From a bacterium (lineage in GTDB: Bacteria > JAJVIF01 > JAGGVT01), in contig JAGGVT010000140.1 in NCBI GenBank assembly GCA_021157815.1, forward strand, positions 1 to 33,542: a stretch of 33,542 nucleotides of DNA, given 5' to 3'. Below, piece after piece: positions 2,726-33,542 of this stretch (position 1 is the first letter of the stretch; each line of letters starts with the position of its first letter). The position numbers and the translations under genes are program-made. Below the pieces are notes generated by a model. The model had not been told where the DNA came from and ran no database searches. It worked only from the letters and a program-made list of their open reading frames with translations.

Positions 2726-3821
2726 CGGAAAGCTTAAGATTGCAATGGTCGCTCCGGCGAACAATCCGCATACACAGCGGTTTGCGGAGCATTTCATCAA
2801 CAGCGGGCATGAATTAAAAATCGTATCCTATGCAGCTGCTGATATCGAGGGCACTGAGGTTTATGTTCACTCGCAGATTCCTGATGATGTAAAAGGATTA
2901 AAGCGCAAGTGGGAGTATTTTAAGGACTACAAGGAGGTTAGGCGAATCCTCGAATGGGCGGATGTTGTTTTCGTCAACTTCATCTACAACTGGCGTTTCA
3001 ACGAGGTTTATCGCGGATTGAACAACGTTGTGGTTCTGCTGTGGGGCAGCGATATCACATGGCAGGTGGATGAGACCGAGCAGCAGGCCAAATATAAAAA
3101 ACTGATTCTTTCAATCGGGCGAAGGGTACTGGCATTCAGCGATTTCCTTTCCAAAGCCGCTGTCAAATATATGCCTGACGGGCAAATTCCTGAGGTTCTT
3201 CATATTGGTGTGAAACTGGATCAATTCCATCCGGGAAATAGAAAACTTGCAGAGGATGATCCTGTTGTAATCGGCTACGCAAAGGGGCTGTCCTCGAAAT
3301 ATGGCCCTGAGATTCTGATTGAGGCATGCGACATGCTTCGTAATGAAGGCATGAATTTCATTTGCCGTATCGCTGGTGGCGGCGATTTGCAGGTCAGTTT
3401 GAAGATTATGGTTGATCGGCTGGATTTGAAAAAACATGTGGAATTTCTCGGACGCCTTCACCACAATTCCATCCCTAATTTCATGAGGGAGATAGATATT
3501 TTTGTTATGCCAAGCGTTGTCGAGGAGAGTTTTGGCGTTGCGGCACTGGAGGCGTCAGCGACCTGCCTTCCTGTGGTAGCCAGCAATATTGGCGGAATTC
3601 CAGAGGTAATCTGGGATGATGAAACGGGAATTCTTGTTCAACCGGGCAAATCAATTGATCTGGCTTTGGCGCTGAAATCGCTTATTGTCAGTCCCGACCT
3701 TCGCAGCTGCATGGGCAAGCAGGGAAGGGATTTCGTACGGTCAAATTACACGTGGGAGAAAACGGTGGAAAGGCTTGATGAGATTTTCATGGAAGTGTTT
3801 GACGATACCGGTTTGGTTTAA
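2700..3821 (+). CDS. GT4 family glycosyltransferase
   Basis: About 373 residues from the ATG at 2700; a TTG at 2694 is an alternative. It overlaps the flippase gene by 26 nt. The N-terminal domain begins KLKIAMVAPANNPHTQRF, the GT-B opening strand followed by a His-containing loop. The C-terminal domain shows FLGRLHHNSIPNFMREIDIF and then MPSVVEESFGVAALEASATC, the E-x7-E donor-binding motif of GT4 enzymes, followed by PVVASNIGGIPEVI. It would transfer a sugar from a nucleotide donor with retained configuration. With the two preceding genes it forms a surface-glycan assembly cluster. The operon probably ends here, as repeat element A1 begins 4 nt after the stop. Confidence 0.88.
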   Translation: MTSKTTASNGKLKIAMVAPANNPHTQRFAEHFINSGHELKIVSYAAADIEGTEVYVHSQIPDDVKGLKRKWEYFKDYKEVRRILEWADVVFVNFIYNWRFNEVYRGLNNVVVLLWGSDITWQVDETEQQAKYKKLILSIGRRVLAFSDFLSKAAVKYMPDGQIPEVLHIGVKLDQFHPGNRKLAEDDPVVIGYAKGLSSKYGPEILIEACDMLRNEGMNFICRIAGGGDLQVSLKIMVDRLDLKKHVEFLGRLHHNSIPNFMREIDIFVMPSVVEESFGVAALEASATCLPVVASNIGGIPEVIWDDETGILVQPGKSIDLALALKSLIVSPDLRSCMGKQGRDFVRSNYTWEKTVERLDEIFMEVFDDTGLV

Positions 3822-4947: not shown

Positions 4948-5175
4948 AATAATAATCGCTAATTCACACAATACCCCGGCGAAGGGACGCCGGGTTACAA
5001 GTTCAGCTTGTAGCCCGGTTTCTCATTAACCGGGATAAATGATGGCTGATTCACATAAGACCCCGGCGAAGGGACACCGGGTTACAAGTTCAGATTGTAG
5101 CCCGGTTTCTCATTAACCGGGGAAAATAATCGCTAACTCACACAATACCCCGGCGAAGGGACGCCGGGTTACAAG
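4948..5175. repeat. Family C tandem array, 87-bp period, two hairpins per unit
   Basis: The box CCCCGGCGAAGGGACGCCGG occurs at 4974, 5061 (one base different) and 5148, exactly 87 bp apart. Each box folds as CCCGGCG / loop AAGGGA / CGCCGGG. Between boxes lies a second hairpin, CCCGGTT / TCTCATT / AACCGGG, at 5014-5034 and 5101-5121. The flanking bases (ATAATCGCTAA, TCACACAATA) also repeat. Related boxes are found at 22200 and 22254. Confidence 0.9.
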
Positions 5176-5192
5176 ATAATTTTCCATCCGGT

Positions 5193-5219
5193 GTCATTCC
5201 GGGCTTGACCCGGAATCCA
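5193..5219. repeat. Family E palindromic repeat, copy 1
   Basis: GTCATTCCGGGCTTGACCCG followed by GAATCCA; a close copy lies at 32761-32787. The core CCGGG-CTTGA-CCCGG is a hairpin. On the minus strand this repeat supplies the last seven codons and the stop of the TolQ-like gene. Confidence 0.85.
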
Positions 5220-10751: not shown

Positions 10752-10919
10752 GTTAGTAAGTTAGCAGGTTAGCAGGTTAGCAGGTTAGTAAGTTAGCAGG
10801 TTAGTAGGTTAGTAGGTTAGTAAGTTAGCAGGTTAGCAGGTTAGCAGGTTAGTAAGTTAGCAGGTTAGTAGGTTAGTAAGTTAGCAGGTTAGTAGGTTAG
10901 TAGGTTAGTAAGTTAATAA
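10752..10919. repeat. Octamer tandem array, 21 units, with 32-bp higher-order blocks
   Basis: Twenty-one contiguous 8-bp units of GTTAGYAR. GTTAGCAG occurs nine times, GTTAGTAA six, GTTAGTAG five, and the last unit is GTTAATAA. Writing the unit endings, the order is taa-cag-cag-cag, taa-cag-tag-tag, taa-cag-cag-cag, taa-cag-tag, taa-cag-tag-tag, taa. There are therefore alternating four-unit blocks. The array lies between the protease stop and the glycosylase promoter region. It carries stops on both strands and is non-coding. Confidence 0.97.
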
Positions 10920-10978
10920 GAAAAACGTAATTGATGGATTTTGGCGAAAACTGGAATCCATCTTTTGATTTCATGCGA

Positions 10979-14454: not shown

Positions 14455-15996
14455 ATGATGCGAAATCGAAAAAATAAAATAGCTTCTTTCTGGAGTATTG
14501 TTCTTCACGGAACACTTCTCGGGTTGGCGATTTCGCTGCTCTATGTAGGCGCAGTATTTGCGCAGCCTGAAACCGAGACAAAAAAACCGATCTACATTCT
14601 CGATGTCAAAGGCGTGATTAATCCATTCACCGCCAAATACACACTCAGAGGAATTAGCGAAGCTGAACGGGGCGACGCTCAGCTGGTAGTGATAATGCTT
14701 AACACGCCCGGCGGATTGGATACGAGCATGCGCGATATCAATTTGGCAATCCTGAATTCAGACATTCCAGTCGCTGTTTATGTCGCTCCAAAGGGAGCTC
14801 GCGCCGCAAGCGCGGGAGTTTTTATTACGTATTCATCGGATATCGCGGCAATGTCACCCGGAACGAATATCGGCGCGGCTCATCACGTGTCAATCGGCGG
14901 AAGCGGTGATGAGGATAAAAAAGATGATAACAGCTGGATTGACATGGTTCTGGATTTATACAAGGAAGCAAAAAAACGCGAGAAAGAAAAACAAAAGAGT
15001 GAAGATAAAACTCCGGTAGTAACCGAACCTGAAAAGCCAGTTTCCAAGCCTGATGCAACAATCGGGGATGAATCGAAACCCCTGTCCACTCAGCAGGTAA
15101 TGAGTGAAAAGATCACCAACGACGCTGTCGCCGGATTGAGGGCGATTGCGGAATTGAAAGGCCGTAACGCAGACTGGGCTGAAAAAGCTATCAGGGAATC
15201 GGTCTCAATTCCCGCCAGTGAGGCGTATGAAATCGGTGTTGTGGAATATCTGTCTGATTCTGTCGAGGAATTACTCATTCAGATTGATGGCCTTGTAATT
15301 ACAAAATCAAAACAGGAACATACGCTTAACACTGCGGGAGCGCCGGTCAGGCATGTTCCGATGAGCGCAATCGAAAATCTCATGCTTATTATTACAGATC
15401 CGCAAATCGCATATTTCCTGTTAATGATAGGAATCTACGGGCTGATTTATGAAGTCACGCATCCGGGAGCTGTGTTTCCCGGAGTTATCGGCGGGACCAG
15501 TCTCGTGCTTGCTATTCTCGCGTTTAATTATCTTCCCATAACCGCAGCAGGTATCGTTCTTCTAGCACTTGGAATTCTATTCATGGTTGCCGAATTCAAA
15601 GCTCCGGGAATCGGGATTCTTGCCATTGGCGGCGTGATATGTTTCCTGCTGGGAAGTTTCCTTCTCATTGATCGCAATTACAGTGAAATGGTGATTCGTC
15701 CGGAAAGCTATGTTCCCATGACGGTTCTCTCGGTGATTCTTCTGGTGATATTCCTGCCGATAATTTATAAATCGATGAGGGGCAAGGTAGTAACCGGAAT
15801 GAAGGGAATCCAGGAAACAGTAGGCACTGTTGTAAAAGAGCTTTCACCTCTCGGTAAGGTTTATGTTCATGGTGAATACTGGGACGCTCGAACCGAGGAC
15901 GGCTCCACTCTTGAGAAGGACTCCCGGATCGTGGTTATTAAAAAGGACGATGACGAGATGGAACTGATTGTTAAAAAGCGGGAGGATAAGTCTTGA
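14455..15996 (+). CDS. NfeD long form: membrane-bound ClpP-class serine protease
   Basis: A 513-residue membrane protein. It has a signal peptide to about residue 36 (VGAVFAQP), then a ClpP/crotonase-like protease domain with LNTPGGLDTSM and S119 in GARAASAGVF, and the catalytic Lys219 in SEKITNDAVAG. Several membrane helices (about 310-440) and a C-terminal NfeD OB-fold (GKVYVHGEYWDA, residues 467-478) follow. The archaeal homologue cleaves a hydrophobic region of stomatin using a Ser-Lys pair. A charged, low-complexity linker (about 150-210) separates the two catalytic residues, making the gap about 100 residues instead of about 40. The partner slipin lies two genes downstream. Repeat B1 follows 19 nt after the stop. 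Confidence 0.93.
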   Translation: MMRNRKNKIASFWSIVLHGTLLGLAISLLYVGAVFAQPETETKKPIYILDVKGVINPFTAKYTLRGISEAERGDAQLVVIMLNTPGGLDTSMRDINLAILNSDIPVAVYVAPKGARAASAGVFITYSSDIAAMSPGTNIGAAHHVSIGGSGDEDKKDDNSWIDMVLDLYKEAKKREKEKQKSEDKTPVVTEPEKPVSKPDATIGDESKPLSTQQVMSEKITNDAVAGLRAIAELKGRNADWAEKAIRESVSIPASEAYEIGVVEYLSDSVEELLIQIDGLVITKSKQEHTLNTAGAPVRHVPMSAIENLMLIITDPQIAYFLLMIGIYGLIYEVTHPGAVFPGVIGGTSLVLAILAFNYLPITAAGIVLLALGILFMVAEFKAPGIGILAIGGVICFLLGSFLLIDRNYSEMVIRPESYVPMTVLSVILLVIFLPIIYKSMRGKVVTGMKGIQETVGTVVKELSPLGKVYVHGEYWDARTEDGSTLEKDSRIVVIKKDDDEMELIVKKREDKS

Positions 15997-16015
15997 AATA
16001 TTTTTTTGTTCCAGT

Positions 16016-16213
16016 TTCAATAAACCGTGTGGGTGATATTAGATTGAGTAAAAAAGGGGATTGTCCCAACCAAGTGAATAAACACAGTATAAATGAGGGT
16101 TTACAGCATAGTATATTTATAACACCATATTTGAAGATTCATGTGGACGTAACCTGTTATCGGGGAATGCCCCTTTTTTTACGGGGGGCAAATAACCCAA
16201 ATTATTTATTGAA
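16016..16213. repeat. Family B repeat, copy B1
   Basis: A 198-bp element that begins TTCAATAAA and ends TTTATTGAA. Inner arms carry GAGTAAAAAAGGGG on the left and CCCCTTTTTTTACGGG on the right, which can pair into a long hairpin. Copies lie at 29286-29466 (inverted) and 32119-32319. It sits between the two NfeD genes and could act as a partial terminator. A 75-codon frame through it is not a gene. Confidence 0.9.
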
Positions 16214-16260
16214 GCGCTAAATTTTAATTATGAATATTTTCAGCAAGCGGGAATGAAACA

Positions 16261-16554
16261 ATGGAAATGACATGGTGGGTAATCGGAATTGTAATCGTAA
16301 TCGCGTTTATCTGGATAAGCATCGCAAAATCGATTTCAGCGCACAAGGAAAAGGTAGTCGGTGGTGTCGAGGCTCTGGTTGGAAAAACCGGCACGGCGAA
16401 AACCGACATCGACCCGACGGGAAAGTTCTACGTTTACGGTGAATACTGGGATTCCGAGGCTCTCGGTGAGCATTTGAAGGAAGGCGACAAGGGAAGGGTT
16501 GTCGAGATACGGTCATCCGATGAGCAGTATTTGATTGTTGAAAAGATCAAGTAG
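16261..16554 (+). CDS. Short NfeD protein (one helix plus OB-fold)
   Basis: A 97-residue protein with one N-terminal membrane helix (WWVIGIVIVIAFIWISIA) and a soluble NfeD-type OB-fold containing GKTGTAKTDIDPTGKFYVYG and EYWDSEAL. The OB-fold resembles the C-terminal domain of the long NfeD upstream (GKFYVYGEYWDS against GKVYVHGEYWDA), so the two are probably paralogues. It has no protease domain. Short NfeD proteins next to slipin genes are a known pattern and are thought to bind or anchor the SPFH partner. Translation probably starts at the ATG at 16261; an in-frame ATG at 16267 is an alternative. The slipin gene starts 104 nt downstream on the same strand. Confidence 0.88.
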   Translation: MEMTWWVIGIVIVIAFIWISIAKSISAHKEKVVGGVEALVGKTGTAKTDIDPTGKFYVYGEYWDSEALGEHLKEGDKGRVVEIRSSDEQYLIVEKIK

Positions 16555-17569: not shown

Positions 17570-17720
17570 GTCATTCCCGCGAAAGCGGCTGTTGAAAAAG
17601 AGCTGAATGTAGGGGGTAGGTCTCTGTGCCTACCCTAAATATTGGCATAAATACAGGGCAACCACGGAGAGTTGCCCCTACATAATTAGGTTTTTCAACA
17701 GTCCCTTTCGCGGGAATGAC
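17570..17720. repeat. Family D palindrome interrupted by an inserted element
   Basis: The outer arms CATTCCCGCGAAAG (17572-17585) and CTTTCGCGGGAATG (17705-17718) are perfect reverse complements. They match the D repeat at 7478-7594. The centre has been replaced by the 113-bp element at 17589-17701. Confidence 0.88.
17589..17701. repeat. Family G element, 113 bp, nested in a D palindrome
   Basis: Terminal inverted repeats CTGTTGAAAAA (17589-17599) and TTTTTCAACAG (17691-17701). Inside are nested pairs: TGTAGGGG with CCCCTACA, GGTAGG with CCTACC, and GGGCAAC with GTTGCCC. This is the structure of a small non-autonomous transposable element with no coding capacity. The rest of the 17439-17870 gap holds only the terminator and the promoter candidate. 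Confidence 0.85.
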
Positions 17721-25391: not shown

Positions 25392-25412
25392 TGTTTTTCC
25401 AGAGATGCATTA

Positions 25413-25644
25413 AAATATCAGAGGTTTTTAGAGGCTGTCGGGAAAGGTTGTTTTATATCTCATCCCCCCCTTAGTCCCCCCGCGAGCGGGGAGATGTTTT
25501 TTGCATTTGTAAATAATATATCCGGTCAATACACTTGCGAAGGGAAAAGATAACATTCTCCCTCCCCGCTCGCGGGGAGGGCTGGGGTGGGGGTTTCTTG
25601 TTTGCGGCGCCTTTCCCGACAGCCTCTAAAACACTCTGCTATTC
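25413..25644. repeat. Family A repeat, copy A2, best-preserved terminal inverted repeats
   Basis: The left arm 25413-25447 and right arm 25610-25644 match at 31 of 35 bases; the inner 22 bases (25426-25447 and 25610-25631) are perfect and contain CTGTCGGGAAAGG. The core is the same as in A1, with palindromes CCCCGCGAGCGGGG (25478-25491) and CCTCCCCGCTCGCGGGGAGG (25561-25580). It occupies most of the gap between the convergent methyltransferase and dtd genes. Confidence 0.93.
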
Positions 25645-25669
25645 TAATGTGATTTAACAATCAGACATC

Positions 25670-28633: not shown

Positions 28634-29239
28634 TTATTTGGCATTCGATGCCAATTTATCTTTAATTTCAGCGACCGTTTTATTCACAAGATCCGTGACC
28701 GCGACGGATGATATTGTCGCGCCTGTGACTGCCATAATTTGATTAACAGTCGGGCTTCCAGCTTTGATAACCTCAATCTGGCTTGCGGTTGGCTTGTCAA
28801 CATACTGCATCTGCCAATCCTCTTCAACGATTTTGTTGCCAAGTCCCGGAGTCTCCTTCTGGTCGAGAACATACAGTCCAGTCAGTTTATCCGCTTTTGT
28901 ATCCAGCCCGATGAGAATTTCGACTTTATCCGCGAATCCCTGTCCTGTCGCCGGTACTACCCATCCTACCTGAGCATCACCGCTCATCGCGCGATAGATT
29001 ATTTTTCCATCGATTTCAAATCCCTTACCTGTATCTGAACCGGGAACAAGATTCGGTATCTGGGAGAAAGTTTCGTTCAGTTTGTTCTGTTGGATTTTCT
29101 CACCCAGAGAGATTTGAACACCGGTGAGACTGGCGCCAAAACATACTGCAAGAAGCAATATTAGCCACGCCTGAGCGATATAATTCCCGCCTTTTTCCGG
29201 TGTTTCATCGACTTGTTCTGTTTTTTCTTCTTCTGCCAT
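28634..29239 (-). CDS. rnfG: Rnf complex flavoprotein subunit RnfG
   Basis: A 201-residue protein with one N-terminal helix (about 22-43) and a periplasmic FMN domain. The FMN-binding motif VTGATISS at 171-178 includes Thr175, the residue to which FMN is attached by a phosphoester in RnfG/NqrC. QKETPGLGNKI near 128 is also a family signature. The N-terminal ~20 residues are acidic (MAEEEKTEQVDETPEK) and may be a cytoplasmic tag. The gene is separated from rnfD by repeat B2, so its transcription depends on read-through or on a promoter in the 29240-29471 gap; I see none with good boxes. Confidence 0.95.
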   Translation of the reverse strand: MAEEEKTEQVDETPEKGGNYIAQAWLILLLAVCFGASLTGVQISLGEKIQQNKLNETFSQIPNLVPGSDTGKGFEIDGKIIYRAMSGDAQVGWVVPATGQGFADKVEILIGLDTKADKLTGLYVLDQKETPGLGNKIVEEDWQMQYVDKPTASQIEVIKAGSPTVNQIMAVTGATISSVAVTDLVNKTVAEIKDKLASNAK

Positions 29240-29285
29240 TAGTTTACCTGTATATCAAAAATAACTTACATTTTATTTTCTGCAC

Positions 29286-29466
29286 TTCAATAAATAATGT
29301 GGGTTATTTGACCCCGTAAAAAAAGGGGACAGTCCACATGAGACTTCCAACTTGTTGATTTCAATAAATCTAATTAATAACACCTGTGTTTATCACATTA
29401 ATAAACGTTATTGGGACAGTCCCCTTTTTTTACTCAACCTAAATTCGACCCAAACGATTTATTGAA
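29286..29466. repeat. Family B repeat, copy B2, inserted between rnfD and rnfG
   Basis: A 181-bp element in inverted orientation relative to B1 and B3. The ends are TTCAATAAAT (29286) and ATTTATTGAA (29457-29466). The inner arms GTAAAAAAAGGGGAC and GTCCCCTTTTTTTAC can form a long hairpin with a T-run in either direction. It begins 5 nt after the rnfD stop, in the direction of transcription, so it could attenuate the downstream genes. Confidence 0.92.
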
Positions 29467-29471
29467 AAGCC

Positions 29472-30488
29472 TTATTTCCTAACCGGTACGGGTCCGCCAA
29501 ACGGTACCGGAATTGTCCACTTGTTGATTAACGGCGTGACTGCGTTCATCAGCAATACCGCAAACATAACTCCCTCAGGATATCCGCTGAATGCGCGTAT
29601 CAACATTACAACTGCGGCAAATCCGATTCCGAATATCACTTTACCTTTTGGAGTAAGCGGACTTGTAACCGGGTCGGTTGCGATAAAAAACGCTCCGAAC
29701 AGAAACGCGCCACCTACAAGGTGATGCAGAACTGTCCATTCCGCTGATGTGTTAGTCAGATTGCCAATTCCAGCGAACACAATCAGAGCTGCTATTGCTG
29801 AAACTGGAATTTCCCATGATGCTGTCCGTTTGATGCAAAGGTAAATTCCGCCAAGAATACATGCAATCGCGCTTGTTTCTCCGAGTGAACCGTTTGTGTT
29901 CCCTATTAAAAGTGCCCATAACGGAGTGGACTGCCCAAGCTGTTTAGCTAGAGTTAATGGGGTCGCCTGTGTGAGAACTTCCATTCCACCTGCGACCTGA
30001 TACGCTGCCGCTCCCAACGCCATTGGGAATGCAAAGAGTACAAATGCGCGCCCGACCATCGCGGGATTAAAAATGTTATAGCCCAGTCCGCCAAATGCAA
30101 TCTTGCCGAGGCCTATCGCTGCCATTGAGCCAATAAACGCGACATACCACGGCACACTGGAAGGGAGAGAAAGCCCGAGTATCACACCTGTAACCGCCGC
30201 CGAGTAATCGCCAAGAGTGATTTTCTTTAATCGCCACGATGTGAAAAGCGCCTCGAACGCAAGGCAGGATAAAACTGAAATCCCGACCTGCACAACGACA
30301 TGCCATTTGAAAACCCATATCGCAACTGCCAGAAGTGGAACAAGCGCGATGAGAACATCAATCATCATTTTCTGCGTGGTGAATGCAGTATTCGACAGAT
30401 GCGGTGACACTGTCACCTGAATCGACGGATTTATTACGGGTTTTTCAACCTTTTCAGCGGTTTTTACTTTATCTGTATTTTCGTTCAC
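29472..30488 (-). CDS. rnfD: Rnf complex subunit RnfD (membrane flavoprotein)
   Basis: A 338-residue protein with about nine helices. LGYNIFNPAMVGRAF near residue 136 is the NqrB/RnfD family signature. VLTQATPLTL near 171-180 contains Thr176 in the A-T-P-L context that carries covalent FMN in homologues (usually SGATPL). The N-terminus (30 residues) is cytoplasmic and charged. The start is GTG at 30488, 46 nt after the rnfC stop. It links RnfG and the RnfA/E core in the pump. Confidence 0.96.
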   Translation of the reverse strand: MNENTDKVKTAEKVEKPVINPSIQVTVSPHLSNTAFTTQKMMIDVLIALVPLLAVAIWVFKWHVVVQVGISVLSCLAFEALFTSWRLKKITLGDYSAAVTGVILGLSLPSSVPWYVAFIGSMAAIGLGKIAFGGLGYNIFNPAMVGRAFVLFAFPMALGAAAYQVAGGMEVLTQATPLTLAKQLGQSTPLWALLIGNTNGSLGETSAIACILGGIYLCIKRTASWEIPVSAIAALIVFAGIGNLTNTSAEWTVLHHLVGGAFLFGAFFIATDPVTSPLTPKGKVIFGIGFAAVVMLIRAFSGYPEGVMFAVLLMNAVTPLINKWTIPVPFGGPVPVRK

Positions 30489-31957: not shown

Positions 31958-32118
31958 GAGATTCACTTTTCCAGATTGAAAGTGTGATAAAATAATAATG
32001 CTATACTTGCTTGCTGTTTAGCCTCAATATGTGATTTATCACCCTCAACGTATATTGTCCCTAATTGTGTGTGACCAATTTTTACTATTTATTTTTCTGT
32101 GATTATTAAAAAAGGCTC

Positions 32119-32319
32119 TTCAATAAATCGAGTGGGTTGAGTTTGGATTGAGTAAAAAAAGGGGAATATCCCAACCAAGTGAATAAACACAGTATAAATA
32201 AGGGGTTACAGCATAGTATATTGATAACATCTGATTTGAAGCCTCATGTGGACGTACACCGTTATCGGGGAATGCCTCTTTTTTTACGGGAGGGCAAATA
32301 ACCCACACAATTTATTGAA
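32119..32319. repeat. Family B repeat, copy B3
   Basis: A 201-bp element, ends TTCAATAAAT and ATTTATTGAA, closely matching B1 along its whole length (CCAACCAAGTGAATAAACAC and CATGTGGACGTA shared). It lies upstream of the rnf promoter in the 1068-bp intergenic region 31891-32958, which holds no gene I can support; a 62-codon minus-strand frame inside the repeat is not a gene. Confidence 0.92.
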
Positions 32320-32457
32320 GCGCCAAAAGTTTAAAATGACGCATGCAGCACCTCAATCGTATGAATGGATAATAAAGTTATGAACCGTTTCACTTGATAA
32401 TGACATCATGAACTCAATTTGAGTATCAGAATTCCCAATTTTAAATGGGATGCAGGG

Positions 32458-32708
32458 GTTTAATAGTTTTTCGGAAAATGTTTTCCCCTGGGAGCGCTGG
32501 TTTCTAACCGGCACTTGGACAGACTAACTAAAATGTAAAAAAGTGCATCTTACAAACATGGTTGATTAACTCAACGCCTATTTATAGGTATGTCGTTTGT
32601 TAGACAAGCTTAATTGATTTCTATTAACCTAACACAAGTGCCGGTTAGAAACCAGCGCTCCCAGGGGAAAACAAAGTAATAATTGGCTTTCCCGACCATC
32701 TCTTAAAC
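32458..32708. repeat. Family A repeat, copy A4 (degenerate left end)
   Basis: The left end 32458-32480 (GTTTAATAG then TCGGAAAATG) and the right end 32685-32708 (reverse complement GTTTAAGAG then TCGGGAAAGCC) match the Family A inner arm. The cargo is a 191-bp structure with 37-bp perfect arms (next entry), not the cargo of A1 to A3. Confidence 0.75.
32481..32671. repeat. Family F inverted repeat, 37-bp perfect arms
   Basis: The arms at 32481-32517 and 32635-32671 are reverse complements at all 37 positions; the arm includes CTGGGAGCGCTGGTTTCTAA. The 117-bp spacer is AT-rich with no open frame. A short fragment of the arm occurs at 18384-18399. Confidence 0.95.
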
Positions 32709-32958: not shown

Positions 32959-33542
32959 ATGAAAGGATACTACTTCATAACAGATTCCGAGCTAAGCGAG
33001 GCTGGGAGTATCAGCGATGTTCAAAACGCTCTTGATGCCGGTGCGCAAATGGTTCAGTATCGCAATAAAACCGGACCGGATGTTAAGATGTATGAAGAAG
33101 CTTCTGTTCTTACTAAGATGTGCAAACACATTCCCTTTGTCATCAATGACCGGGTTGATATCGCGCTGGCGGTCGATGCCGACGGTGTACATATCGGGCA
33201 GAATGATTTGCCGATTGAAGTTGTTCGCAAGTTGATTGGCCTGGGCAAGTTGATTGGAGTCACTGTTCATAATGCTCAGGAGGCAATAGAAGCGGAATTA
33301 AAAGATGCGGATTATGTTGCAGTCGCGCCTATATATTCTTCAGTCACAAAAGCCAGCACAATAGAACCCGTTGGGCTTGAACTAATCAAGGAAATAAAAA
33401 AAGCCTGCACGATTCCGGTAATCGCAATCGGGGGAATTAATCTGGATAACGCACCGGAAGTAATTGAGTCTGGAGCTGACATGATCTGCGCGATTTCCGC
33501 TGTTTTAAATGCTGATGATATTAAATCTGAGATGGAAAAGTT
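32959..33542 (+). CDS. thiE: Thiamine-phosphate synthase, 3' end outside window
   Basis: The frame starts ATG at 32959 with AAGGA 7 nt upstream, and runs open to the window end (194 full codons). It is a TIM-barrel ThiE: YYFITDSE at the first strand, MVQYRNKTG (phosphate and pyrophosphate contacts), FVINDRVDIALAVDADGVHI with GQNDLP, GVTVHNAQEA, VAPIYSSVTKAS and IPVIAIGGI near the end. ThiE joins the thiazole and pyrimidine halves to make thiamine phosphate. The usual GPIFPT-x-TK loop is APIYSSVTK here. No TPP riboswitch is visible in the short leader and no other thi gene is in view. Confidence 0.95.
   Translation, partial: MKGYYFITDSELSEAGSISDVQNALDAGAQMVQYRNKTGPDVKMYEEASVLTKMCKHIPFVINDRVDIALAVDADGVHIGQNDLPIEVVRKLIGLGKLIGVTVHNAQEAIEAELKDADYVAVAPIYSSVTKASTIEPVGLELIKEIKKACTIPVIAIGGINLDNAPEVIESGADMICAISAVLNADDIKSEMEK

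Follow-up and report, generated by a model that had tools for sequence, protein, structure and literature searches.

The window analysed here, a stretch of 33,542 nucleotides of bacterial DNA (contig JAGGVT010000140.1 of assembly GCA_021157815.1), carries an rnf operon in the order rnfC, D, G, E, A, B, all on the minus strand, as read from its open reading frames and a family search. The genes were named by NCBIfam matches and gene order: the matches of rnfC, rnfD and rnfB exceed a curated cut-off, that of rnfE lies above the cut-off for NF009070 but not for TIGR01948, and rnfG and rnfA, which fall below theirs, were named by best match and order. As listed in Table 1, a repeat element lies between rnfD and rnfG. 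Gene positions and repeat alignment both bear out the preliminary description that this repeat splits the operon, and rnfG, E, A and B are intact open reading frames beyond it. The same description had placed the repeat at 29286–29466, starting 5 nt past the rnfD stop. An alignment of 53 copies combined with end-finding showed that this span is the inner part only; with the ends corrected to 29281 and 29471, the element directly adjoins the rnfD stop codon, which sits in the target duplication.

Table 1. Features of the element, its neighbouring genes and its further copies in the window
Feature	Position	Strand	Remarks
rnfD	29472–30488	−	TIGR01946, 290.9 bits, above cut-off
rnfG	28634–29239	−	best match TIGR01947, 79.2 bits, below curated cut-off of 102; operon position
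MITE copy, short subtype, 191 nt	29281–29471	−	sense orientation equals direction of rnf transcription; 53-copy alignment, end-finding, orientation
Terminal inverted repeat, rnfD side	29457–29471	−	GGCTTTTCAATAAAT on minus strand
Terminal inverted repeat, rnfG side	29281–29295	+	TGCACTTCAATAAAT
8-bp target duplication, rnfD side	29472–29479		TTATTTCC; includes rnfD stop codon 29472–29474 (TAA)
8-bp target duplication, rnfG side	29273–29280		TTATTTTC; 7/8 identical to rnfD side
Inner arm transcribed first in rnf mRNA	29413–29431	−	A7GGGGACUGUCCC; letters of 29413–29431: GGGACAGTCCCCTTTTTTT
Inner arm transcribed second in rnf mRNA	29318–29335	−	GGACUGUCCCC, then U7 at 29324–29318; letters of 29318–29335: AAAAAAAGGGGACAGTCC
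Second copy, long subtype	16011–16218	+	between same-strand genes 14455–15996 and 16261–16554
Third copy, long subtype	32114–32324	+	5' of rnfC; inverted relative to rnf copy

The junction between rnfD and rnfG

The terminal inverted repeat of the family is 15 bp long and of the GGCNCTTCAATAAAT type, and the termini of the rnf copy carry 1 and 2 mismatches to it over 14 nt. The imperfect duplication and terminus suggest that the rnf copy is not brand-new. When the element and one duplication were deleted in silico, a spacer of 33 nt separated the rnfD TAA from the rnfG ATG. We propose that a MITE inserted at the rnfD stop codon with duplication of 8 bp, which would have preserved the stop codon and left the 33-nt spacer and the start region of rnfG intact downstream. 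The anatomy of the insertion, the family, the orientation and the hairpin geometry reported here are direct observations.

In other species, rnfG lies next to rnfD at 78 of 80 rnfD loci. Among the 71 loci with a placeable start, the gap from rnfD to the nearest possible rnfG start has a median of 10 nt, and it exceeds 100 nt at 11, so that long gaps are tolerated there. The element itself was found at 0/80 rnf loci of other species and is therefore an addition in this genome; since it is missing from all of them, a conserved attenuator is unsupported.

The element family and its hairpin core

Copies of the element are dispersed: the window, together with the first 60 retrieved stretches of the genome, holds at least 74 places (one duplicate place removed). 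Of these, 62 are at least 140 nt long and 54 have both ends readable; the other eight of the 62 had one end that differed from the terminal repeat at more than 5 positions and were excluded, and one copy (L030) was retained despite a doubtful right end. Each family search scored 40 of 133–151 candidates, and at least one long copy (C41:9540–9707) lies outside the set, so the set of copies is large but not complete. End-finding separated two subtypes, a long one of about 210 nt (34 copies) and a short one of about 192 nt (20 copies), to which the rnf copy belongs. In 34 of the 54 intact copies the duplications match at 7–8 of 8 positions, against 1.5% expected when left flanks are paired with right flanks of different copies, and the left duplications are 90% A+T.

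These properties describe a new MITE family, which is a known sort of element: the rnf copy is shorter than 500 bp (191 nt), lacks a transposase gene (the ORF list of the window holds no frame of 80 aa or more inside it), and has terminal inverted repeats, a target site duplication and multiple dispersed copies (54 intact). The 8-bp A+T-rich duplication and the GG at the start of the element are features that we take to be ISL3-like. A profile search for an ISL3 or IS1595 partner was negative: no autonomous element with matching ends was seen as a PF01610 or PF12762 match, the two families searched in this incomplete 221-contig genome, and without a PF01610 match a derivation from ISL3 was not adopted. 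The family was not found in 39 other genomes searched as relatives; only three of these belong to the same class, and rnfD was undetected in all three. Searches of plasmids, viral contigs (one exact terminal pattern) and Rfam likewise gave no match.

The inner unit consists of an A-tract, GGGGACTGTCC, a spacer, GGACTGTCCCC and a T-tract, and it also occurs without the terminal repeats. In 11 further core stretches, the sequence near the core that comes closest to the 14-nt terminal repeat differs from it at 3 to 6 positions, and several earlier core-bearing stretches are similarly without terminal repeats. Such cores were seen in this genome in stretches L009, L022, L024, L030, L034–L037 and L178–L188; some have a different set of flanks in common, so one core seems to reside in more than one shell. 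The genome holds nine Y1_Tnp genes, and the motif lies near one of them.

Other repeats were observed in the window. Between rnfC and the gene at 32959, a perfect 39-nt inverted repeat (32479–32517 and 32635–32673) with 117 nt separating its arms is probably another small mobile element. A tandem array of 8-nt units of the GTTAGYAR type occupies 10752–10923, and similar tracts, GTTAGCAG, lie on the flanks of cores in L022, L179 and L185. With further dispersed, tandem and inverted repeats at 4951–5211, 25408–25649 and 17570–17720, the genome thus holds several small repeat families. The mutually inverted copies at 29281–29471 and 32114–32324 flank rnfC and rnfD, and recombination between them could in principle flip this segment.

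RNA structure and the terminator question

An excess of rnfCD over rnfGEAB, which the earlier proposal ascribes to a possible terminator in the element, would disturb Rnf if it is, as presumed, a 1:1 complex, unless read-through is efficient. Folding confirmed that the structure of the element exceeds chance. RNA of the plus strand (29270–29480) folds at −54.6 kcal/mol (z −6.05, equalled by 0/200 shuffles), and rnf-sense RNA (29230–29500) folds at −66.2 (z −2.49, equalled by 1/200). The inner arms, described before as a long GC-topped hairpin followed by seven T bases, are real, and the second ends in CCCC followed by U7; they lie 77 nt apart, however, and the hairpin is therefore not compact. 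At equilibrium the arms pair, with −30.8 kcal/mol from A-tract to U-tract. In nascent RNA just past the U-run, while the polymerase hybrid covers the last 9 nt, a local bulged hairpin of −5.9 kcal/mol is favoured, stronger than the class mean of −1.7.

The resemblance to an intrinsic terminator therefore holds in part. A GC stem followed by U7 is present in rnf-sense RNA, with the U-run directly after the long-range stem, but at the U-run no compact hairpin scores better than −4.5 (tail −1.69), and two C separate this one from U7; a compact, GC-rich hairpin with a short loop was thus not found. On the same scale, which is TransTermHP-like and combines pair energies from PMC12306157 with a tail formula, 8.6% of 407 coding T-runs in the genome score −4 or lower, and the copy at 16011–16218 gives −7.2 and −4.7 in its transcribed direction. 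The most terminator-like member by far is a deletion copy, L163 (about 2959–3063), in which an internal deletion fuses the inner arms into a perfect palindrome, AAAAAAAGGGGACAGTCCCCTTTTTTT (−10.0, tail −4.44). A terminator scan reported none at the rnf copy, but it also missed L163, and we did not rely on it. The rnf copy is terminator-like in outline and weak in its compact hairpin.

These properties make it unlikely, although worth weighing, that the element functions as a partial intrinsic terminator. Such a role would draw on the GC stem that runs straight into U7 and on the nascent hairpin two bases ahead of the U-run, and some MITE transcripts do end within the element, as described for QMITE1 small RNAs in PMC5896051. 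The 77-nt loop and the weak score and tail argue against it; the silence of the scan adds little. From sequence, attenuation of rnfGEAB is possible, and the intact downstream frames would fit partial attenuation equally well.

A post-transcriptional role, in which the spacer is a substrate of RNase III or RNase E, or the hairpin shields the 3' end of rnfCD, so that ratios shift without termination, is a tentative alternative that we hold to be somewhat less improbable. The stable folds are consistent with it, and RNase III is described to cleave mRNAs containing Correia elements and ERIC insertions to alter mRNA decay (PMC10969869); against it, the excess of the rnf-sense fold over shuffles is modest. 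It is very improbable that the element supplies a promoter for rnfGEAB. Promoters occur in other MITEs, according to PMC10969869, but a search for sites of the sigma-70-like type found 0 in 29230–29530, where 1.0 is expected by chance, and none around copy L013 or at 15980–16270.

Orientation between genes and comparison with known systems

Of the copies between same-strand genes, 22 have the family sense orientation and 6 the opposite one (p = 0.0037). In tight same-strand gaps, where the spacer outside the element does not exceed 150 nt, the counts are 15 and 2 (p = 0.0023), and the rnf copy shares the orientation of the 15. The counts exclude 4 copies that lie at a contig edge and 2 that fall within gene calls, the genes near copies were predicted with a home-made hexamer score, and the p-values are uncorrected, several thresholds and measures having been tried. 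In convergent and divergent gaps, 11 of 20 copies agree with the local majority gene strand; this absence of skew speaks against a replication-strand bias as the cause. The orientation ratio does not differ significantly between the short (12:1) and long (10:5) subtypes (Fisher p = 0.17). In a post hoc, exploratory comparison, the short sense class makes up 10/17 of the copies in tight gaps and 20/108 by composition (p = 0.0003).

Hairpin strength does not explain the skew, which is real in this sample. The 17 tight-gap copies do not have weaker hairpins than the others on the TransTermHP-like scale (Mann-Whitney p = 0.20) or by folding energy (p = 0.47 and 0.22), and in 60% of trials random flips of these 17 yield a mean just as high. 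Tight same-strand gaps also hold five long copies whose local hairpins lie between −6.6 and −11.0 kcal/mol, and the stronger-hairpin copies there include that at 16011–16218. The stability of the whole nascent RNA differs by orientation in 45 of 53 copies; a test built on it largely repeats the skew and gives no independent evidence. Since hairpin strength is unrelated to tight same-strand gaps, the distribution shows neither purging of terminators nor termination, which speaks further against a partial terminator; the skew itself is no evidence for termination.

Collectively, our results favour, with a probability of roughly 0.68, an ordinary MITE insertion at the rnfD stop codon that the operon tolerates, with read-through and polarity that is modest at most. 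Supporting it are the duplications, the ends, the subtypes, the empty site, the 0/80 loci elsewhere, the weak hairpin and the favoured orientation of 15 of 17 tight-gap copies. Against it stand the inner stem, which is stable at equilibrium and ends at U7, the local hairpin exceeding the class mean, and the negative search for a transposase partner in two families. RNA polymerase would mostly read through the element, because the stable stem needs arms 77 nt apart to pair and only a weak compact hairpin precedes the U-run; the intact rnfGEAB frames, behind an element that is apparently not brand-new, argue for sufficient read-through. The element would probably act as a folded spacer that separates rnfCD from rnfGEAB and may be processed by RNase. 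A more speculative extension, which we consider improbable, is that sorting by orientation and subtype acts on copies in transcription units, the short sense form being a joint that permits read-through and serves RNA processing or stability, and that the core moved between different transposon shells.

With the insertion at rnfD, a regulatory story about an energy-conserving complex gives way to a concrete insertion event. The genome also offers a test set of its own: one hairpin in two subtypes and both orientations, in and outside tight gene pairs. The 15 to 2 skew, if it holds in more genomes, would help to show what operons tolerate between genes.

A full-text literature search with GGGACTGTCCC and two variants gave, among the matches listed, only papers unrelated by title; none was found that joins at least three of REPIN, RAYT, MITE and terminator, and searches on MITE terminators and ISL3 MITEs returned only reviews and other families. 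Like the REPINs described in PMC3116915, the element has as its core an inverted doublet of a short near-palindrome, GGGGACTGTCC, round a spacer, which also occurs without the outer repeats; it differs in its DDE-type terminal repeats and 8-bp duplications, and its link to a Y1 transposase is weak. The remaining comparisons rest on the review PMC10969869. Correia, ERIC and QMITE elements are likewise short, dispersed and hairpin-forming, and enter and can alter transcripts; they belong to other hosts, their effects are reported or proposed, and we liken them by description, not by sequence. SPRITE of Streptococcus pneumoniae is a dispersed repeat with a sequence resembling a rho-independent terminator, whereas our element, read in the rnf direction, has a weak compact terminator hairpin. 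Chunjie of Geobacter uraniireducens (Chen et al. 2008, Genetics 179:2291; also cited in PMC5896051) is again likened by description rather than by sequence: it is a MITE of similar length (178–235 bp) with terminal and direct repeats and many copies, one of them in a reportedly undisturbed operon. Chunjie differs in host, and by analogy it may provide a published precedent for a MITE that resides in an operon without disturbing it.
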